Positions 4,887 to 46,758 of a stretch of DNA of 55,520 nt are shown here, piece by piece. Where the stretch lies: NCBI GenBank assembly GCA_017609625.1, contig JAFCDN010000006.1, forward strand, positions 1-55,520, read 5' to 3'. The DNA comes from Candidatus Iainarchaeum sp. GTDB lineage: Archaea; Iainarchaeota; Iainarchaeia; Iainarchaeales; 1-14-0-10-31-34. A program made the position numbers and the translations under genes. Below the pieces are notes generated by a model, which saw only the letters and a program-made list of their open reading frames with translations, did no database searches and had not been told where the DNA came from. How positions within the stretch are numbered: the first letter of the stretch is position 1; every line of letters begins with the position of its first letter.

Positions 4887-7136
4887 TCACTCCCACAAGT
4901 CATCCTCTTTTTTTTCCTTAACTGTTTTCTTTTCTTCTTTTTCTTCCTTTTTTTGCTCAAGCTTTTTTTCTAAAAAAGGTTGTTTTTTTACATCTTTTTT
5001 TTCAACGGTTTTTTGGTCAAGCTTTTGTTTTGATAAATCTTTTTCTAAAAGATTTGAAGGTTGTTTTGTTACACCTTTTTTTGAAGAAGATTCTGTTTGT
5101 GTTTTTTGGTCAGAAGTTTTTGTTACACCTTTTTTTGAAAAAGGTGTTTTTGGAAAAGAAAACAAGCCTGGAACTTCTTCTTCTTCATAAACATGGCTTT
5201 TTTCTTTTCCTTTTACTTTAAACATTGAACGCATTTCCTTGTCATCAAAAAAAGTTTCTTTTTTTCCAAAAACATCACTTTCTTCTTCTGCTTCCTGAAT
5301 TTCTTCTCCTTTTTCTTCTGAAGCTTTCTTGAAAGCTTCAATTGCAGATTCAATGTCTCTTAATTCAGTGCTGTACTGGGAAAGCAAAGAATAATATTGT
5401 TCATTGCTTATTGAACCTAAATTAAAATATTTTTCCTGTAAATCGCTTTTAAGCCTTTCAAGCTCTTTTTTTCTTCTGTTCAAAGAACCCAGTTTATTCA
5501 TTCTTTTCCTTAAAATAATCAATACAAGGATTATGAAAACAAAAGAGAAAATCACTGAAAGAAACAGCAAAGGGTTTTCCCTGAAATAATACTCTAAAGT
5601 TAATTCTCCTGTAACCTCAAATAATTCACTGAAAGAAACACTGTTGTTATATGAATCAACTGCCTCTACTGTCAAAAGCAGCTGCCTTGCTTCAGAAAAC
5701 TTTTCATTTACAACAATATAAGAAAAATAAAATATTCCCTTCTCTTTTTCTGTTACAGCAATTGTTTCATCGTTTATTTTAACAAAAACCGTTGCATTGC
5801 TTAAAGGATTTCCGTTTGCATAATTAAGTTTCAGCCTGAAATTAAGCTCTTCCCCTAAAGCCACTATTTGTTTTTTTGGCTCAAGCAGTTCTGCATTAAT
5901 CTTTGCATTATCAATTGTAATATTCAGTTTATTTGAACCGCCATATTTAACAGAGCCAATTGTTTTTTTTGCATTAATCAGAATAGTTTGTTCCCCTAAA
6001 GGAAAATCAAAAGGAAGCATATAAGAAAGAGAATACTTGCCTAAAGAAACCATTTTTAATTCAGCTTCTTTTCCGTTTGGAAGCAGAGCTTTAACTTCAG
6101 CATTATCTACTGGTTCTTCATCGAATGAAACATCAGCTAAAATCTTTAACTCCTGGCCTCTGTTATAAAGTTCATCGTAATCAGAAGAAAAAGCCACGTC
6201 CATAAAAATTGTTCCTGCTTCCTTGCTGACCAAAACAGATTTTTCCATTAAACCTTCATTTGCATAATTGTCTGAACCAGAAACCTCTAAATGCCATTTT
6301 CCTTCAGGATAGATTAAGCTTGTTCTCTGCTCAAAAGAAAAAAAGCCGTTTTCATCTGACCTGGTTTTGGATTCAAAAATTTTTTCCCCTTTATTTAAAG
6401 CCTTTAAAGTAATAATCGCTGAAACAGGCTTTCCTCTTTTCAGCAAAGTTCCCTCCAAAAAAATAATGTTCCCTAAAACAACATTATTTTTGTCAACAGA
6501 AAAATCCATTTCCAGAGAAGGGTCAACTTTTACAGTAAAAACCTCTATTGTGGTAACTCCTAATTTTTCTGCGTAAATCTCTGAAGAATAATCATCTTTT
6601 CCTGTAAGCTCTGAAACAAGAAAACTCACTCCATAAATTCCATCATTTGCTTTGGCGTCTGAATGGTTTCCGTCATCATACATTGGAATGTCCCCTGCAA
6701 AAGTCCTTACCCTTACATTTGCATTTTTTGCAGCAATGCCGTCTGCCTTAACTTTTGCCCTGAAAGTAATTTCATCTCCTCTCATAAAAACATTTTCATC
6801 AGCAGGTTCAAGGAGTTCAGCAGTCAGTTCTGTCGGCGCACAGTCTGCTTCACAGTTGGAAAAATCTTCTCCAGATTCACAGATATGGTTTCCGCAGCAG
6901 TAATATTTTATTTGTGCCCTGCACAAGCCGGTTAAACAACTGTATTCTTTACAGGATTCATTTGGAACATCTCCAGTGCATTCCCCGCAGTCATTAGAAC
7001 AAGTGCATTTATCTTCACCTGAATCACACATCCCATCATTGTCACAAACAGCAAAACTCCAAAGAGAAAATTCTTCTGAATAAGCAAAAGGGAAAAAAAA
7101 AAGCAAAACCAGTGAAAAAAAAATTAACTTTTTCAT
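4887..7136 (-). CDS. Membrane-anchored multi-Ig-like surface protein, Cys-rich N-terminus, C-terminal TM, coiled coil and K/E-rich tail containing hairpin-encoded repeats
   Basis: Signal peptide MKKLIFFSLVLLFFFPFAYS. CDNDGMCDSGEDKCTCSNDCGEC. TM LLFLSVIFSFVFIILVLIIL. Tail TPFSKKGVTKT...PFLEKKLEQKK. Confidence 0.8.
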   Translation of the reverse strand: MKKLIFFSLVLLFFFPFAYSEEFSLWSFAVCDNDGMCDSGEDKCTCSNDCGECTGDVPNESCKEYSCLTGLCRAQIKYYCCGNHICESGEDFSNCEADCAPTELTAELLEPADENVFMRGDEITFRAKVKADGIAAKNANVRVRTFAGDIPMYDDGNHSDAKANDGIYGVSFLVSELTGKDDYSSEIYAEKLGVTTIEVFTVKVDPSLEMDFSVDKNNVVLGNIIFLEGTLLKRGKPVSAIITLKALNKGEKIFESKTRSDENGFFSFEQRTSLIYPEGKWHLEVSGSDNYANEGLMEKSVLVSKEAGTIFMDVAFSSDYDELYNRGQELKILADVSFDEEPVDNAEVKALLPNGKEAELKMVSLGKYSLSYMLPFDFPLGEQTILINAKKTIGSVKYGGSNKLNITIDNAKINAELLEPKKQIVALGEELNFRLKLNYANGNPLSNATVFVKINDETIAVTEKEKGIFYFSYIVVNEKFSEARQLLLTVEAVDSYNNSVSFSELFEVTGELTLEYYFRENPLLFLSVIFSFVFIILVLIILRKRMNKLGSLNRRKKELERLKSDLQEKYFNLGSISNEQYYSLLSQYSTELRDIESAIEAFKKASEEKGEEIQEAEEESDVFGKKETFFDDKEMRSMFKVKGKEKSHVYEEEEVPGLFSFPKTPFSKKGVTKTSDQKTQTESSSKKGVTKQPSNLLEKDLSKQKLDQKTVEKKDVKKQPFLEKKLEQKKEEKEEKKTVKEKKEDDLWE
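5035..5147 (-). repeat. In-CDS hairpins AAATCTTTT-TCT-AAAAGATTT and ACACCTTTTT-TTG-AAAAAGGTGT
   Basis: 5035-5055 and 5125-5147, inside the K-rich tail of CDS 4887..7136; a half-copy at 5071-5080. Confidence 0.85.
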
Positions 7137-16106: not shown

Positions 16107-17636
16107 ATGGCTTTTAGTACAGAAGAATTAATCCAGCTAGGATTGATTATTTCAATAATAATAGTGTTTGGTTTAGCAGTATATATTTTTTTGAAAAACA
16201 AAGGCATTCTTGACAGAACAGAAAGAATCCAAAAAAGCCCTGAACCAAAATCTTATTCTTTTGCAAAAAACAGGAAAATGAGAAAACTGGAAAAAGTTAT
16301 TCCAGATAAAAAGTTAAGCAGAAGGCCTAGTTTAATTGAATTAAGAATCGGAGGAAACAACGGGTTATGGGAAGCAGAAGAAGAAACACCTTTTTCAAAA
16401 AAAGGCGTAACAAAAACCACTCCTCCTGCTGAAAAACCAATGCCCATAAAAAAAGAAGAAGAAACAGGCCCTTTTTGGAAGAAAATGATTCCAGAAAAAA
16501 AAGCGCCAATAAAAACAGCTGAACCACAACCTTTTTTAGAAAAAAAGGTTGAACAAAAAACACAAACAAAACCTTTTTTAGAAAAAAAGGTTGAACAAAA
16601 AACACAAACAAAACCTTTTTTAGAAAAACAAACTTTTGAAAAAAGTTTGAACAAAAAGTTTTCGCCAGCCTTTTCTAAAAAGGCTGAGGTTGAACAAAAA
16701 ACTGCGGCGCAGACTGAAAAACCAAAATCAATTTTTGCAGAGCTAAAAGAAAAACTAAAACCACAAGCAAAACCTAAAATAAAAAAACCAGAAGCAAAGC
16801 CAGTGAAAAAAGAAGAACCAAAAAAAGAAAAAATTTTGTTTGAAACAGAAGAAGAAAAGAAAAAAGATGAAAAGAAATTTGTACAGAAAATCCTTGACTC
16901 AGAAGAAGACGAATTAGAAAAAATAAGCAAAGTGATTGAACCAAAAACAGGAAAAAACTGGGAGCAGGAAAAAAAAGAAACAATTGAATCATTAAAAAAA
17001 GAGTTTGAGAATTTGGATAAAAAAGAAAAAAAAGATTTGTGGACAAAAAAAGAGCCAGAAGAACAACCTTTTTTAGAAAAACAAACTTTTGAAAAAAGTT
17101 TGAACAAAAAGTTTTCGCCAGCCTTTTCTAAAAAGGCTGAGGTTGAACAAAAAAAAGAAGGAAAAGAAAGCTTTGATGAAGAAATGAAAAAATTATTTGA
17201 AGAAAAAAGAAAAGCACTGGGAAAACCTATTAAGAAACCTAAACCACAACCTATTTTAGAAAAAAAGGTTGAAAAACCTGCTTTTAAACCTGCTCCGCTT
17301 CCTGAAAAAATTAAACAGAAACCAGAAATAAAAAAAGAAGTAGTAAAACCTAAACAGGAAATAAAGAAACCAGAAGCAAAGCCACAACCTTTTTTAGAAA
17401 AAAAGGTTGAACAAAAAACTAAAAAAGAAAAAAAAGGACTGTTTGCAAGATTTGGATTCAAAAAAGAAGAAAAAATAAAGCTGACAAAAGAAGAAGAAGC
17501 AAAAGCAAAAAAAGTAATGATGGTTTTAAAAGAAAAAAGGAGGGAATATTCAAAAGAAGATATGAAAGAAGCAATGGAAAACTTAGGATATGATGAAAAA
17601 ATAGTTAAAGAGGTTTTGAGAAGGCTGAAAATATGA
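16107..17636 (+). CDS. Single-TM, lysine/glutamate-rich protein with many hairpin-encoded repeats (PFLEKKV, TPFSKKGV, QTFEKSL, PAFSKKAE) and a C-terminal helical domain
   Basis: N-terminal TM LIISIIIVFGLAVYIFL; repeated PFLEKKVEQK; C-terminal LTKEEEAKAKKVMMVLKEKRREYSKEDMKEAMENLGYDEKIVKEVLRRLKI. Confidence 0.75.
   Translation: MAFSTEELIQLGLIISIIIVFGLAVYIFLKNKGILDRTERIQKSPEPKSYSFAKNRKMRKLEKVIPDKKLSRRPSLIELRIGGNNGLWEAEEETPFSKKGVTKTTPPAEKPMPIKKEEETGPFWKKMIPEKKAPIKTAEPQPFLEKKVEQKTQTKPFLEKKVEQKTQTKPFLEKQTFEKSLNKKFSPAFSKKAEVEQKTAAQTEKPKSIFAELKEKLKPQAKPKIKKPEAKPVKKEEPKKEKILFETEEEKKKDEKKFVQKILDSEEDELEKISKVIEPKTGKNWEQEKKETIESLKKEFENLDKKEKKDLWTKKEPEEQPFLEKQTFEKSLNKKFSPAFSKKAEVEQKKEGKESFDEEMKKLFEEKRKALGKPIKKPKPQPILEKKVEKPAFKPAPLPEKIKQKPEIKKEVVKPKQEIKKPEAKPQPFLEKKVEQKTKKEKKGLFARFGFKKEEKIKLTKEEEAKAKKVMMVLKEKRREYSKEDMKEAMENLGYDEKIVKEVLRRLKI
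16386..16686 (+). repeat. In-CDS hairpin elements, first cluster
   Basis: ACACCTTTTT-CAA-AAAAAGGCGT (16386-16408), AACCTTTTTT-AGA-AAAAAAGGTT (16528-16550 and 16570-16592), CAAACTTTT-GAA-AAAAGTTTG (16629-16649), CAGCCTTTT-CTA-AAAAGGCTG (16666-16686). Confidence 0.9.
17065..17408 (+). repeat. In-CDS hairpin elements, second cluster including a 90-bp perfect direct repeat of 16612-16701
   Basis: 17065-17154 reproduces 16612-16701 (offset 453 bp, in frame). AACCTATTTT-AGA-AAAAAAGGTT at 17248-17270; AACCTTTTTT-AGA-AAAAAAGGTT at 17386-17408. Confidence 0.85.
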
Positions 17637-18817
17637 AAAAGATTATGTTTATTTCAATGCTCTTGCTGCTTTTTGCAGGATGCATTAGTCTGGTACAAAA
17701 TGGGGAAGAAACAATTTCAATAAGCTATTTAAAAGACGGTTCAGTTAGATTTGACCATCAAATTAAAGGAGAAAAAGGTTCATTGTATTTAGACTGGGAA
17801 GGAGACTGCACACCAAAAGTAAAACAAATGATTGACACAAACATCAGTTTTATACAAAAAGAAACAAATAACATAAAAAATTCAGGGAATCTTACACAAG
17901 AAGAAAAAGACATTTTGATTGAAGAAAACAACCGAAAAATTAACAATATGCTTTCAATGAAAACAAGTGTTTCCTGCAATTTAAGCGATGACAATTCAAT
18001 AGGAGTTTTAGAGTATGGCTTTAAACTAACAAGCGGGTTTGAAAACATTCAATTGTTTAACAACAACTACAGATTTGAATTAGAAAAAACAGAAGAAACA
18101 ATTGAATCAAAAATAAGGGTTGTTTCAACAGCAAACAATAAAACAGGAAACCTTTTGGGAAAAATAAAAATTTACTCTGAAAGCAAAATAATTTCAATAG
18201 AGCCTGCAGATAAAGTTGAATTAAAAGGAAATTATTATGAAGTGGACATGCAGGGAATGGATGGAAAAGACATTACAGTAAAAATTGAAAGAAAAACAAA
18301 AGCCCAAATAAATGGAAACGGAGATGAAGACGAAGAAGAGCCAGACATTTTTTCTGCTTTTATTCAAGGATTTACTTTAGAGAAAATTTTCAGTTTAGAA
18401 AAAGACAATCCAGTTCAGTGGATTCCAACACTGATTATTGTATTAATTTTGATTCTGGTTATTGCAAAAATAATTTCATCAATTCCAAAGAAAGAAGAAG
18501 ATGAAGAAGAGGATAAAAAAGACACAAAAAAACTAGATAAGAAAACTCTTGAAAACAAAGTTTTGGCAACAAAAGACAAAATACTTACAGGAGCCGTCAA
18601 TAAAAAACATCAGATTACAATGAAAAAAAAGCCAATTCAAGGAAAACCAAAAAAAGAAGAATTCAATTCAGAAGAGAAAAAACAGATTAAAACAATAATT
18701 CTTTCATTAAAAGAAAGCTTCCAGAATTACTCAAAACAAGAAATAAAAAAAGCAGTTCTGGGAAAAGGCTATTCAAACAAAATTGCTGATGAAGTTGCTG
18801 ATTTTTTCTACCCGTGA
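17633..18817 (+). CDS. Lipoprotein-like membrane protein with C-terminal helical domain shared with the preceding gene
   Basis: Lipobox-like MKKIMFISMLLLLFAGC; TM IPTLIIVLILILVIAKII; C-terminal NSEEKKQIKTIILSLKESFQNYSKQEIKKAVLGKGYSNKIADEV. Confidence 0.75.
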   Translation: MKKIMFISMLLLLFAGCISLVQNGEETISISYLKDGSVRFDHQIKGEKGSLYLDWEGDCTPKVKQMIDTNISFIQKETNNIKNSGNLTQEEKDILIEENNRKINNMLSMKTSVSCNLSDDNSIGVLEYGFKLTSGFENIQLFNNNYRFELEKTEETIESKIRVVSTANNKTGNLLGKIKIYSESKIISIEPADKVELKGNYYEVDMQGMDGKDITVKIERKTKAQINGNGDEDEEEPDIFSAFIQGFTLEKIFSLEKDNPVQWIPTLIIVLILILVIAKIISSIPKKEEDEEEDKKDTKKLDKKTLENKVLATKDKILTGAVNKKHQITMKKKPIQGKPKKEEFNSEEKKQIKTIILSLKESFQNYSKQEIKKAVLGKGYSNKIADEVADFFYP

Positions 18818-18993
18818 AACTTTTCCAAAAGTTTCAGCAAAATGCACGACTTCACTTTGTTCAGTCCTGCTGCTTTTCCAAAAGGTTCAACAAAACTGTC
18901 TTTTAATAAAAGGCAAGTTGCCAAAATGCAAGACTCTTAGTCTTGCTAGCACGACTTTACGTCGTGCCTCGGGACTCGCGATCGAAATCGCGA
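18815..18993 (+). repeat. Composite hairpin array A (intergenic)
   Basis: Tandem inverted repeats: TGAAACTTTT-CC-AAAAGTTTCA (18815-18836), GCAAGACT-CTT-AGTCTTGC (18928-18946), GCACGAC-TTTAC-GTCGTGC (18949-18967), TCGCGAT-CGAA-ATCGCGA (18976-18993), plus degenerate units between. Confidence 0.9.
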
Positions 18994-19034
18994 AGACAGA
19001 AACTATTTAAATCTCTAAAAGCATTAATACTGCT

Positions 19035-21110
19035 ATGCAGCCTTTTCTGGAAGACTTGAAGAAACAGATTGAAGGAGCTCCAATAAAACAAGTTATTCCT
19101 GTTTTTTTATTTATAGCAATAATGCTTTTTGCATTATCTTTTTCTCTCCAAGACTCTCCAAACGGAGCAGCAATAAGACAACTGCCAACAGAAAAAGAGT
19201 TGGTTCCTAAAGAACCAACTTGTGTTCCTTCAACTGAAATTTGTGACGGAAAAGACAATGACTGTGATAATTTAATTGATGAAGAAGAAATTTGTAATAT
19301 AGTTGAAATTACAGGAAATTTAGAAGTAATAGCTGTTGATGATTTTGAGAATAACAAATCAGATTATTTGTATTACTTGAATTCTAATGGTAAGAGATAT
19401 GAATTGGAATTTGAGAATAGAACAGTCATAGGTTTAAATGGGAAAGTTATAATCAAAGGAATTATTGAAGGAGATAAGATTATTATAAATGATGCTAAAG
19501 ATATTAAGATATTGGAACCTGCACTACAAAACAATAATATAGGTCCTCAACAAACAATAGTCATTATTGTTCAATCAGAAACATTCTCTGGAATGATTTC
19601 CAATGAAGACGCTGAATATCTTATGTTTAATGATTCAGATTTCACAATTCAAGATTATTATATAAAAAATTCATTTAATAAAACTTACTTAACTGGAGAA
19701 GTTTTAGGACCATATATTATTGATTGCTCAAGCAATAGTCTAAATGAGGCGATTAAAGCTACAGATAATGAAATTTATTATCCAGATTATGATAAAATAT
19801 ATCTTTTTGTTGGATGCGAGCAGATTTCTGGTGGCTGGTCAACTATAGGCAAAACAATTGTCTCCACAGATGATGGAGAGGTTAATATTAGCGTTTCAGT
19901 TTCGCACCATAATGCACTTCCAAACACCTCTGACGTTCTTTCTCTTAAAACCACAATTCATGAATTAGGGCATTCATTTGGATTGCATCACGCAAATAGA
20001 TATGTTTGTTTGAATCCTCAAGGAGAGCAAGTCCCATTTTCTTCAAATTGTACTAGTGTGGATTACGCCGGAAATTATGATGTTATGGGTGCAAGCATAG
20101 GCCATTTAAATGCACCCCATAAAGAAGAAGCTGGATGGTTAGCCCCCCAAAATATTATTCAAGCTTCAGAGGGAACATTTTTTGTAGAACCAATTGAAAG
20201 AGTTGAATCTGTTAATTCTATTCAGACAATTAAAATTCCTATAATTGACCCAAATCATTATGCTTTAAGCCCTCAAGCATATTATTACATAGAATTCAGA
20301 CAGCCATTGGATTTTGATGTATTTTTAACAAGAGATTATGATGAAGTTTTTGAAGGAATTCTTAATAATATCTTTGGAGAACCTCCTGATATTGAAGAAG
20401 ACTGGGATAATGTTACAAATCTAATTGAAATTAACCCTAATGAAAAAATGGGGTTTGCGCTTGAAGTAAATGAAACTTATGCTGATGAATTTAATGATAT
20501 AATAATAACAGTTTTAGATACAAATGAAGACGGCGCGCTAGTAAAAATTGATCCATATTATGGCTGTGGAAATGCAATATTAAACGAAAATGAACTATGC
20601 GATTATGCTGCTCCATTAGGAACCAATAACCCTTTTGGAGACCAGTGCACTGAAAACTGCTGGGTTGATGGAACTGAAAACGGCTGGCTTGGTTGCAGAG
20701 GTTCAGGCATTCATGTTTGTTATGAGCGAATTCCCGCACATTTGCTTGCACAATACTTCCAAGAAAATCCTTTATGCATAATAAATACAACCTGTGGAAC
20801 AGAATTAATACCTGCAAGCTGTAATGAATTCATTTGTCCAAATCCATTAGAAATAGAATCTTGTTACGACAATGACACTGGATTAAATTATACAATAAAA
20901 GGAATAGTTAAAGCCACAAGCAACGGAACACTAACCACTAAAACAGATTACTGCAGCGGTTCAACTGTAAGAGAATATTATTGTAGTGATGACAAAGCCA
21001 TCAAATACAAAGACTACAGTTGCTCTCCAGACTCCTGCTCAAACGGAGCATGCTATGGCGGCAGCACACCCTGCATACCAACACCAGAGAATCCTTGTAA
21101 CATAACCTGA
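19035..21110 (+). CDS. Membrane-anchored/secreted metzincin-type metalloprotease with MopE-like metal-binding motif and Cys-rich tail
   Basis: HELGHSFGLHH zinc motif plus downstream YDVMG Met-turn; ICDGKDNDCDNLIDEEEIC; N-terminal TM. Confidence 0.8.
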   Translation: MQPFLEDLKKQIEGAPIKQVIPVFLFIAIMLFALSFSLQDSPNGAAIRQLPTEKELVPKEPTCVPSTEICDGKDNDCDNLIDEEEICNIVEITGNLEVIAVDDFENNKSDYLYYLNSNGKRYELEFENRTVIGLNGKVIIKGIIEGDKIIINDAKDIKILEPALQNNNIGPQQTIVIIVQSETFSGMISNEDAEYLMFNDSDFTIQDYYIKNSFNKTYLTGEVLGPYIIDCSSNSLNEAIKATDNEIYYPDYDKIYLFVGCEQISGGWSTIGKTIVSTDDGEVNISVSVSHHNALPNTSDVLSLKTTIHELGHSFGLHHANRYVCLNPQGEQVPFSSNCTSVDYAGNYDVMGASIGHLNAPHKEEAGWLAPQNIIQASEGTFFVEPIERVESVNSIQTIKIPIIDPNHYALSPQAYYYIEFRQPLDFDVFLTRDYDEVFEGILNNIFGEPPDIEEDWDNVTNLIEINPNEKMGFALEVNETYADEFNDIIITVLDTNEDGALVKIDPYYGCGNAILNENELCDYAAPLGTNNPFGDQCTENCWVDGTENGWLGCRGSGIHVCYERIPAHLLAQYFQENPLCIINTTCGTELIPASCNEFICPNPLEIESCYDNDTGLNYTIKGIVKATSNGTLTTKTDYCSGSTVREYYCSDDKAIKYKDYSCSPDSCSNGACYGGSTPCIPTPENPCNIT

Positions 21111-26102: not shown

Positions 26103-28649
26103 GTGAATAAAAATTTAGTTGCAGTTTTTTTAATTTTGCTGAGTGCTTTTGCCAGTGCTCACACAATAGAAGGAGATTTTGAAGGAATAACTTTTCAGGG
26201 AGAAACAGTTGAAAGCACTTTTTTATTGTGCAATACTTCAGATTCAAGTGAAAACTTTCACATTAATTCAAGCAATCCCTGGATGCAGTTAAGGCCTTTA
26301 TCTGTTTATCTGTCAGGAAATTCCTGTGAAGAAATCTATGCTTTTACTACCCCTGCACCTTATGCTGAATCAGGAGAATATGAAATAGAAGTTACAGCAA
26401 GCGCAGACAAAAGCGTTTCAGAAACTTTTTATTTAGAAGTTGTGGAAGGACACAAAATAAGAATTACACCATTTGATGATGAAATTTCAACAACCCAGTG
26501 TGCGGAAAAAGTTTTTGAATTTGAATTAGAAAACACTGGAATATTTGATGAAAGAGCTTTAATTTCAGTTGAAGGATTAAATGAAAACTGGTTTGAATTA
26601 AGTTCAGAAGAGATTTTGCTTCCAAAAGGAGAAGAAAGAGAAATAGAATTAACAATTAATATTCCATGCAATCAGGAAATAAAAGTTTATGAATTCAAAT
26701 TACTGGTTGAATTAAAAAACACCGGAATAATAAAAGAACAAAACCTTGAATTAAACATAGAAGACGGCCAGGGAATTTTAATTGAAAGCAAAGAATTTGC
26801 TTCATGCAATGACTGGAAAACAGAAAACACTATTGCATTAAACAACGAAGGAATGCTTTCAGACGCATTAACAGTTGAATTACAAGGACTGGATTTTGTT
26901 GTACTAAAAGAAAACAGTTTTTCTTTAGGACCAGGAGAAATAAAAGAACTGAATTTAGAGTTTAATAAAACAGAATTAGAACAAGGAAATTACACTTTTA
27001 AGTTAAGAGTTTATTCAGAAAAATTCAATCAAGTTTATGAAAGAGAATTTGAACTAAAATTAGAAAACTGCTATGATTTAAGCATAGAAAAAGCAGCTTT
27101 CCAGGATTCAGCCTGCATTGAATCAAAACCAGAGGTTTCATTTATTATAAGAAATAATGGAACAAGAAAAACAGAAGTAAGAGCCGGATTAGAAGGAATA
27201 AATGCAGTTCTTGAAAAAAACTCTTTTTCTCTTGAAGCAGGAGAAAGCGTAGAAGTTAGAGTTGAACTTGATTTAGAAGGAAAAACCGGAGAAACAAGCT
27301 TTTTGTTTATAGCAGATTCAGAAGAATTTACTAAAACAATAGAAAACACAATTTCAATAGAAGACTGTTATGAAACAGAATCAACTGTTCCTTCAATAGA
27401 AGTCTGCAGAGAAATTCCCTTGCAGGGAAAAGAAATTGTAATAAGAAACACCGGGACAAGAAAACAGTATTTTAATGTTTCATCTAATGTAGAATGGATT
27501 AAATTAAAAGAAAAAACTTTTGAAATAGAAGGATTACAGGAAAAAGTTATTCCATTAATTATAACTCCAGGAAAAGATGCAAGCGAAGAAAGCTATTCTA
27601 TCCTGACAAAAACAGAAAACAACAGCTATACGATGAAAGCAAGCATTAACTATTTAGATAAAGAAACATGCTTTGGAATAGAAATGACTAATCTGAAAAG
27701 CTTTGTTAATGTAAACGCAGGAGAAGGAGCAATCAATACAATCAAAGTAACAAACAAAGGAAAAACAATTCAGACAGTATACTTTAGAGTTGAACCATTT
27801 AACTGGGTTTACTTTAACCCAAAAGAAATCAACATTGAGAGTGGAGAAACAAAAGAAATCTATGTATATTTTAATCCTCCATTTGATTTCGCAGAAGAAA
27901 CCGCAACTGCAACTGTAAAAGCAGAAACAAACTATGGGTTTACAGCAGAGCAGGAAGTAGAAGTGCATATCTTTGGGGGAAGCGTTATATTGACAATCAA
28001 CCCAGAAGACATTAAAGTAAATCCAAAAGGTTTAGATTTAGAGGACACAAAAGAAAATACAGTTGAAATAAAAATTGAAGTAGAAAACAATACTGAAACA
28101 AACATGAAAATCTTAGGAGTAAAAACTCCTTACACTGAATCAAAATATGTAATAGAAGAACCAGTGATAAAAAAAGGAGAAAAAGGAGAAATTACACTGA
28201 GATTTGTTGCAAGCGAAGAACTTGAATTATCTGGTTTGGAAGTTCCGATTGAAATAATCACAGACAAAGGAACATACTATAAAATTGTAACTCTCCCAGC
28301 AGGAGAAACAGAAGACGAAAAAGAAGATGAAAAGAAAAGCAGGGAAGCAACAACCGGATTTGTATTGTTTGGAGAAGACCAATATGTTCTAGTAATTTTG
28401 ATTGTAGCTGTAGTAATATTGATAATAATGGCTGCAGTTAGAACAGAAAAAGAAGATGAAAAAGAACAAGTGGTTGATTATGGAACAGAAAAAGAATTAG
28501 ATAAAGTGAAAAACCAAATCACCCAAAAAGCTGCTGGAAAAACACCTTTTTCAAAAAAAGGTGTAACAAAAACATCTTCATTTTCAAAAAAAGGTGTAAC
28601 AAAAACATCTTCAAAAAAGAAGCCAGCAAGGAAAAAGAAAAAAAAGTAA
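26103..28649 (+). CDS. Large membrane-anchored surface protein with repeated Ig-like domains and a hairpin-encoded TPFSKKGVTKTSS tail
   Basis: Signal peptide MNKNLVAVFLILLSAFASA; repeated 'SLEAGESVEV' domains; TM; tail TPFSKKGVTKTSSFSKKGVTKTSSKKKPARKKKKK. Confidence 0.75.
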   Translation: MNKNLVAVFLILLSAFASAHTIEGDFEGITFQGETVESTFLLCNTSDSSENFHINSSNPWMQLRPLSVYLSGNSCEEIYAFTTPAPYAESGEYEIEVTASADKSVSETFYLEVVEGHKIRITPFDDEISTTQCAEKVFEFELENTGIFDERALISVEGLNENWFELSSEEILLPKGEEREIELTINIPCNQEIKVYEFKLLVELKNTGIIKEQNLELNIEDGQGILIESKEFASCNDWKTENTIALNNEGMLSDALTVELQGLDFVVLKENSFSLGPGEIKELNLEFNKTELEQGNYTFKLRVYSEKFNQVYEREFELKLENCYDLSIEKAAFQDSACIESKPEVSFIIRNNGTRKTEVRAGLEGINAVLEKNSFSLEAGESVEVRVELDLEGKTGETSFLFIADSEEFTKTIENTISIEDCYETESTVPSIEVCREIPLQGKEIVIRNTGTRKQYFNVSSNVEWIKLKEKTFEIEGLQEKVIPLIITPGKDASEESYSILTKTENNSYTMKASINYLDKETCFGIEMTNLKSFVNVNAGEGAINTIKVTNKGKTIQTVYFRVEPFNWVYFNPKEINIESGETKEIYVYFNPPFDFAEETATATVKAETNYGFTAEQEVEVHIFGGSVILTINPEDIKVNPKGLDLEDTKENTVEIKIEVENNTETNMKILGVKTPYTESKYVIEEPVIKKGEKGEITLRFVASEELELSGLEVPIEIITDKGTYYKIVTLPAGETEDEKEDEKKSREATTGFVLFGEDQYVLVILIVAVVILIIMAAVRTEKEDEKEQVVDYGTEKELDKVKNQITQKAAGKTPFSKKGVTKTSSFSKKGVTKTSSKKKPARKKKKK
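28542..28613 (+). repeat. In-CDS hairpin ACACCTTTTT-CAA-AAAAAGGTGT plus two tandem 33-nt units
   Basis: TTTTCAAAAAAAGGTGTAACAAAAACATCTTCA at 28548-28580 and 28581-28613; the inverted repeat spans 28542-28564. Confidence 0.9.
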
Positions 28650-44397: not shown

Positions 44398-44609
44398 AAA
44401 CGTTTAAAAAGCAGACGTTTCATCGCGGTTCCGTCCGCGAGTGACGAGGCACGACATAAAGTCGTGCTGGCACAACCAAAGGTTGTGCGTTTTTTGTTGC
44501 ACCTTTTCTTAAAAGGTGCTGGCAATGCATAAAGCTATAAAAAAATAAAGAAAAAGAAGAGGGATTTATCCCTCGTTTTTTTGCTCAAACTTTTTTCGAA
44601 AAAGTTTGA
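44398..44609 (-). repeat. Composite hairpin array B (intergenic)
   Basis: Inverted repeats TCGCGG-TTCCGT-CCGCGA (44423-44440), GCACGAC-ATAAA-GTCGTGC (44449-44467), GCACAACC-AAA-GGTTGTGC (44470-44488), GCACCTTTT-CTT-AAAAGGTGC (44499-44519), GAGGGAT-TT-ATCCCTC (44559-44574), TCAAACTTTTT-TCG-AAAAAGTTTGA (44585-44609). Confidence 0.9.
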
Positions 44610-46682: not shown

Positions 46683-46758
46683 GCAAGACTTTAAGTCTTG
46701 CCAGCTCTATCGAGCGCAGCGAAGATAGTGCTTCGCACTCAACTGCCAAAACAGTTGA
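46683..46758. repeat. Composite hairpin array C (between convergent genes)
   Basis: GCAAGACT-TTA-AGTCTTGC (46683-46701), CTATC...GATAG (46707-46728), AGTGC-TTC-GCACT (46727-46739), TCAACTG-CCAAAA-CAGTTGA (46739-46758). Confidence 0.85.

Follow-up and report, generated by a model that had tools for sequence, protein, structure and literature searches.

The stretch of DNA analysed here (55,520 nucleotides from Candidatus Iainarchaeum sp., contig JAFCDN010000006.1, in the following the window) carries runs of distinct hairpins at 18.8 kb and, on the minus strand, at 44.4 kb, for which an earlier note had offered two readings, a modular structured 3′-UTR RNA or a REP/MITE-like palindromic element. 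The question is which of these they are and how they came to lie where they do. Both arrays are real, with the order and positions previously described, and the compensatory arm changes between the two copies proved genuine. These hairpins belong to a family of short double-hairpin DNA repeats that had not been described before and is present in dozens of copies per genome.

Anatomy of the hairpin arrays

The unit common to both arrays is a rigid 45-nt module composed of hairpin B (7-bp stem, 5-nt loop), an 8-nt linker and hairpin C (6-bp stem, 6-nt loop NCGRAA). It is accompanied by AT-rich hairpins with a tail ANCAAAA, here called type 1, which follow the same plan as the module: read from B, a type-1 unit consists of an 8-nt linker, RTTTTGNT, followed by the type-1 stem. 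The features of the arrays are as follows.

18815 to 18836, plus strand: type-1 hairpin TGAAACTTTT-CC-AAAAGTTTCA, beginning on the TGA stop codon and followed by the tail AGCAAAA as far as 18842
18844 to 18870, plus strand: B-like long-loop hairpin GCACGACT-TCACTTTGTTC-AGTCCTGC, one mismatch
18873 to 18895, plus strand: short type-1 hairpin CTTTT-CC-AAAAG, tail AACAAAA
18896 to 18902, plus strand: left arm CTGTCTT of a possible outer closing stem, partner AAGACAG at 18993 to 18999 (read from the sequence)
18900 to 18926, plus strand: type-1 hairpin CTTTTAATAAAAG, GGCAAGTTGCC, tail AAAA
18928 to 18946, plus strand: hairpin A, an inverted B-type hairpin, GCAAGACT-CTT-AGTCTTGC
18947 to 18948, strand not applicable: TA centre of the head-to-head arrangement
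18949 to 18993, plus strand: 45-nt double-hairpin module (63.8 bits; covariance model and geometry search) with B GCACGAC-TTTAC-GTCGTGC (18949 to 18967), linker CTCGGGAC (18968 to 18975) and C TCGCGA-TCGAAA-TCGCGA (18976 to 18993)
44423 to 44467, minus strand: 45-nt double-hairpin module (65.4 bits; covariance model and geometry search) with B (44467 to 44449), linker CTCGTCAC and C TCGCGG-ACGGAA-CCGCGA (44440 to 44423)
44470 to 44488, minus strand: hairpin A, GCACAACC-TTT-GGTTGTGC, with CA between hairpins A and B
44499 to 44519, minus strand: type-1 hairpin GCACCTTTT-AAG-AAAAGGTGC, tail AACAAAA
44585 to 44609, minus strand: type-1 hairpin, tail AGCAAAA, past the stop codon of the MscS-like gene
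46683 to 46701, plus strand: B-type hairpin GCAAGAC-TTTAA-GTCTTGC
46704 to 46757, plus strand: long-loop double-hairpin module adjoining the stop codon of the chaperonin gene (E 2.2e-4), composed of GCTCTAT-CGAGCGCAGCGAAG-ATAGTGC, TTCGCACT and CAACTG-CCAAAA-CAGTTG

A run of hairpins does lie 3′ of the stop codon at 18.8 kb, as the earlier note had it, but the first hairpin begins on the TGA codon itself (18815). The 13-nt spacer CTCGGGACTCGCG that had been placed between the second and third hairpins is an error, because the left arm of the third hairpin is already part of this string; the true spacer is exactly 8 nt. The site at 46.7 kb had been listed as a further copy, and the covariance model indeed identifies it as a long-loop member. 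In the window's own genome (G000), GGCAAGTTGCC is found repeatedly, and in one of the other two genomes of the genus (G001; the third is G002) a near-identical counterpart of the hairpin at 18844 to 18870, with the loop TCACTTCGTTC, occupies the same site.

Complete head-to-head dimers of about 92 bp occur 20 times in the genus, 19 of them centred on TA, an arrangement that places C hairpins at both outer ends; 23 of 30 pairs of neighbouring modules are head-to-head. At 18.8 and 44.4 kb, the left half of the dimer is reduced to hairpin A. At locus L017 (10081 to 10172), a complete dimer apparently lies within another hairpin (CAACTGT ... ACAGTTG), which suggests nested insertion into a loop, and the possible outer stem at 18896 to 18999 of the window resembles that of L017. 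A conserved piece, CRCGCYCAGTTDAYAYGC, is found beside CTGTC or CTGCC (L013 3694, L035 364, L036 1331, L229 898) and often adjoins hairpin A in tRNA introns and flanks. Positions 19035 to 21110 of the window encode a large protein with a match to reprolysin-like (M12) metallopeptidases and a weak MopE metal-binding motif; stretches resembling it occur on other contigs of the same genome.

Copy number, geometry and spread among genomes

The G000 sample comprised 337 kb, about a quarter of the genome; loci around matches were used as well. When these 337 kb were searched with pairing and a minimum stem G+C as the only constraints and no other sequence constraint, the geometry 7-5-7 / 8 / 6-6-6 was found at 18 sites, two of them likely due to chance, as compared to none in shuffled sequence and zero to four sites with other linker lengths. 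A chance origin of the geometry is excluded, and the absence of an excess over shuffled sequence, named in the earlier note as grounds for refutation, was not observed. Tailed type-1 copies are likewise absent from shuffled sequence; there are 52 of them in the G000 sample, and the G003 and G015 samples contain two apiece.

A covariance model was built from 20 aligned modules (16 from G000, four from G001) and used for the scan of the genome and its relatives that the earlier note had proposed. Matches were many, and other species also carry modules: at E ≤ 0.1, the model finds 70 in the whole of G000 and 71 and 60 in the other two genomes of the genus, so that all three genus genomes examined carry them. 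Three genomes from other families of the order yielded 13, 6 and 5 matches. GC-rich G014 was left out of these counts, as its 27 matches may be due to chance. At E ≤ 0.01, 58 of 75 genomes of the order gave no match. An exact-stem search for enriched hairpin loops revealed no clear family in G003, G014 and G015; tRNA flanks in G003 and G015 nonetheless show double hairpins.

The earlier note did not recognise a named repeat family, and this holds: the single match of Rfam 15 to the window that reaches the gathering score is a tRNA, which rules out a known structured RNA family there. Carriage by viruses was considered, and two exact patterns gave no match in viral contigs. A literature search, which was not exhaustive, retrieved no description of such repeats in these archaea.

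Covariation, conserved loops and exchangeable stems

The 20 modules used for the model were aligned without gaps and are 19 distinct sequences. In these, whose members were chosen by stem complementarity, 98% of cells are paired, with 61 two-sided changes and one one-sided change, and the covariation score is 0.70 versus 0.17 after shuffling and at most 0.11 in each slid control. The strong covariation that had been named as a check on the idea is therefore present among the aligned copies, and this result is independent of any fit to the model. Larger alignments, which are biased towards the model because they were fitted to it, comprise 117 distinct modules of the genus (95.9% of cells paired, 434 two-sided changes, score 0.77 versus 0.19 shuffled) and 24 modules from other genera (93.5% paired, 76 two-sided changes).

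That structure rather than sequence is conserved, as had been proposed, is correct for the stems but not for the loops and the linker, which are conserved in sequence. In the C loop, N-C-G-R-A-A, positions 2, 3, 5 and 6 are conserved to 88–100%, as compared to 42–62% at five of the six left-arm positions of the C stem. In the linker, typically CTCGTGAC, a CG core is conserved (C 0.85, G 0.95). B loops fall into the classes TTTAY, TGAAA, CTTGT and a long type (e.g., CGAGCAAAGCGAAG), and the third B pair is mismatched in about a quarter of the modules, chiefly those with TGAAA-like or long loops. The long loops (L210, L185, L183 and 46704 to 46757 of the window) contain GA..GA together with an inner stem of 2 bp that covaries and a loop of 3 nt (GC-AAA-GC, AT-GAA-AT, AC-GAA-GT); the GA..GA is possibly a tandem G.A motif. 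Reassortment of B and C stems is nearly free: 103 modules draw on 45 B and 32 C stems, which they combine in 88 different ways. G.U pairs are rare (17 of about 1,440, or 1.2%, in the 117-module alignment) and in C stems no more frequent than A.C (seven versus eight), so that they lend no special support to selection for an RNA helix.

Copies at tRNAs, rRNA and stop codons

Fifty-three of 120 genus modules are at most 150 bp away from a tRNA, extend across its called end or are located inside one; copies are also found between tRNA genes and, away from tRNAs, between other genes. Copies occupy tRNA 5′ leaders, 3′ trailers and introns as well as the 16S–23S spacer, in both orientations. Modules were found inside introns of tRNAs for Thr, Tyr, Gly and Ala, and other introns (Trp, Arg, Gly) are made of type-1 hairpins. 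In G002 (L033), one B hairpin directly follows the 3′ end of the 16S rRNA. Some tRNA-adjacent loci were picked because they contain modules. In the G000 sample, a hairpin ends within −3 to 0 nt of the tRNA 5′ end in five of 20 cases and of the 3′ end in eight of 20, as compared to zero to four, mostly zero to two, in other 4-nt bins. Intron starts also hold copies exactly. Since the distal hairpin faces the tRNA on either side, abutting 5′ copies are in sense and 3′ copies in antisense orientation. Double hairpins of a similar kind are present at tRNA ends in a distant family (G015). Hairpin starts also peak at stop codons, with 13 in the 6-nt bin of the codon versus zero to seven elsewhere in G000, and nine in that bin in G003.

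ARAGORN calls introns in about half of the sample's tRNA genes, many of them 60–170 nt long and made of repeat hairpins (L013, L011, L016, L019, L021, L023, L179); some anticodon calls, e.g., Ser(aga) in L023, may be misread through unusual intron positions. A second family of tRNA-intron hairpins, CCCTTTTCTTT...AAAGAAAAGTGYARGTTGCCCAAA with a variant ending TCTACGGTCTRTCCAAA, is common to several families of the order (L061, L072, L073 in G003, L090 in G015, L023, L211).

The suggested 3′-UTR RNA is too narrow. A single conserved RNA of this kind is ruled out by the context, i.e., tRNA leaders, trailers and introns, the 16S–23S spacer and intergenic sites in both orientations. Ordinary terminators are ruled out as well, because hairpins occur in tRNA 5′ leaders, introns and open reading frames, often without a T run.

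Differences between species and copies inside proteins

All comparisons of presence and absence were made between species. At 18.8 kb, where the comparison is anchored on the upstream gene, the orthologous stop codon is the start of a hairpin stem in three species, and the hairpin is different in each (TGAAACTTTT...AAAAGTTTCA in G000, TAAACCCTTT...AAGGGTTTA in G002, C-like TAAACTG-CCGCTGT-CAGTTTA in G001). The gene downstream of this array is of no use as an empty-site test because its protein has no clear orthologue in the sister species. The three species also differ in the spacer upstream of the SSB-like gene: G000 has the 44.4 kb array there, G001 a small type-1/B pair and G002 no hairpin of this kind; at the stop of the MscS-like gene (44585 to 44609), G001 has another type-1 hairpin and G002 none. 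At the 5′ end of tRNA-Ile(TAT), the window has no hairpin and G001 a module. The C hairpin 3′ of tRNA-Arg(CCT) reads TCGCGA-TTTCGC-TCGCGA in G000 versus ACCCGC-TTCCGT-GCGGGT in G001, i.e., the stems differ and the loops are similar.

Type-1 copies are also translated. Six long open reading frames in the 337 kb sample contain in-frame copies, each of them on the coding strand; the window holds the following:

16389 to 17416, plus strand: six type-1 copies, in frame, in the 509-aa reading frame 16107 to 17636
28542 to 28571, plus strand: type-1 copy, in frame, in the 848-aa reading frame 26103 to 28649 (TPFSKKGVTK)
4951 to 5147, minus strand: three type-1 copies, read in frame close to the C-terminal end of the 749-aa reading frame 4887 to 7136

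The copies in the 509-aa frame yield peptides such as TPFSKKGVTK, QPFLEKKVEQK and QTFEKSLNKK. The G002 orthologues of the 509-aa and 848-aa proteins lack these copies, and one site of the former holds one copy in G000, three in G001 and none in G002.

How the family may have spread

We consider it more likely than not that the family consists of mobile, non-autonomous, dispersing palindromic elements of this archaeal lineage. The unit comprises a proximal B, exactly 8 nt and, distally, one of two hairpins, C or the AT-rich type 1; GC-rich units are frequently doubled head-to-head about TA to form a 92-bp element with C at both ends. We infer a mobilising enzyme and a mechanism in which an activity would recognise folded hairpins via their loops and linker and ignore stem sequence; the stems would remain complementary because only foldable copies spread, and arm-to-arm correction and shuffling among copies would furnish new ones. 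Insertions beside or within gene products would persist where they are harmless, namely in tRNA leaders, trailers and introns, at 3′ ends and in low-complexity, lysine-rich stretches of proteins. The rigid geometry, absent from shuffled sequence, the covariation with conserved loops and linker, the 88 stem combinations, the dimers, the abutment on tRNA ends, the presence, absence or change of type between species and the in-frame type-1 copies all argue for this reading.

The REP/MITE-like element of the earlier note is accordingly the better of its two suggestions, fitting best with copies that are dispersed, present or absent between species and in frame in proteins, but two hallmarks were not found. 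A direct repeat of at least 2 nt flanks three of 20 dimers, as compared to 2.1 expected, so that target-site duplication does not exceed chance, and no Y1 transposase (PF01797) was found in G000 and G001, incomplete draft metagenome-assembled genomes (92% and 81% complete); it is present in G002 and G003. Mobilisation by Y1/RAYT in G000 was rejected because no such gene was found there. Two further points stand against mobility: loops that are kept while stems vary are the pattern of a functional structured RNA, and the double hairpins at tRNAs in the distant G015 suggest long persistence at such sites.

These very points, together with distal hairpins that directly adjoin tRNA ends and stop codons, speak for a serious, though rather unlikely, alternative, namely that the double hairpins are cis-acting RNAs of the host that insulate or mark mature RNA ends, in tRNA leaders, trailers and introns and at mRNA 3′ ends, with a host protein binding to NCGRAA and the B loops. 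However, many tRNAs and most genes have no copy, the same gene differs between species, G.U is not commoner than A.C in C stems, type-1 copies are translated within proteins and, since 5′ and 3′ copies are oppositely oriented, the RNA would carry NCGRAA at one flank and the complementary sequence at the opposite one. It is quite unlikely, in our view, that the family represents a mobile class read by structure, in which a hairpin-reading activity would sense only loops, 8-nt spacer and stem length and would place copies precisely where gene products end (mature tRNA termini, splice junctions, stop codons), perhaps via an RNA step.

Passive origin during replication, whereby template switching would make and perfect palindromes and gene conversion would spread them without recognition, so that hairpins accumulate wherever sequence is free, would account for near-perfect Watson–Crick stems with few one-sided intermediates, for shuffled stems and for the absence of target-site duplication, but is improbable, as it explains neither the constant linker length of 8 nt nor the 7-5-7 / 6-6-6 geometry, the sequence conservation of loops and linker or the exact centring of dimers on TA. 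Least probable is spread of hairpin RNAs that the tRNA splicing and ligation machinery would join to fresh tRNA ends or splice junctions and that would then be copied into DNA: copies do lie exactly at mature tRNA ends and intron starts, and RNA-mediated ligation and retrotransposition have been suggested for the shuffling of yeast GC clusters (PMC4478555), but neither stop codons nor the interiors of proteins are sites at which RNA is processed.

Comparison with known palindromic repeats

What is distinctive about the family is that structure, loop and spacer are kept, that stems are interchangeable and that copies lie exactly at the ends of gene products. The REP and BIME sequences of bacteria are inverted pairs of imperfect palindromes between genes and are associated with RAYT (Y1) transposases. 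Inverted pairs between genes are also seen here, but Y1 was not found in G000 and G001, stems are variable and copies occur in tRNA introns and proteins.

Rickettsia palindromic elements (RPE) of about 150 bp, each encoding a conserved peptide, reside in non-coding DNA and in frame in unrelated protein genes (PMC10969869). The type-1 copies, palindromes dispersed in one lineage and in frame within proteins, are an archaeal counterpart of these protein-invading elements; the hairpins described here differ in being 20–45 nt long, with variable stems, and in having tRNA ends and introns as major sites. Membership is not claimed because lineage and length differ, and the likeness rests on descriptions.

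Mitochondrial tandem stem-loops in spacers and RNA genes, with copy numbers that vary among relatives, are known as double-hairpin elements (DHE) in Allomyces and repetitive hairpin-forming elements (RHE) in sponges, the latter with conserved stems and variable loops, which the authors contrast with the evolution of structured RNA (PMC2800124). In yeast mitochondria, units of GC clusters merge and shuffle; GC42 has short direct repeats at its flanks and is more conserved in its stems than in its loops (PMC4478555). Like these elements, the archaeal family has hairpin pairs that recur in spacers, RNA genes and introns; in common with GC42, it also has GC-rich palindromes that lie in AT-rich DNA and whose units merge and shuffle. 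Flanking direct repeats of the GC42 kind are absent, and the conservation of stems over loops seen in sponge RHE and GC42 is reversed. The mitochondrial elements belong to another domain of life and are likened by description.

The loops and linker, being conserved, point to a putative binding protein, so that the question of recognition becomes testable, and the family is a concrete source for the many long introns and leaders that tRNAs of this archaeal lineage have. It is probably best read as resembling both RPE and the mitochondrial double-hairpin elements, with membership in neither claimed: the sponge and yeast mitochondrial repeats keep their stems, and the archaeal family does the reverse, genome-wide and with measurable covariation.
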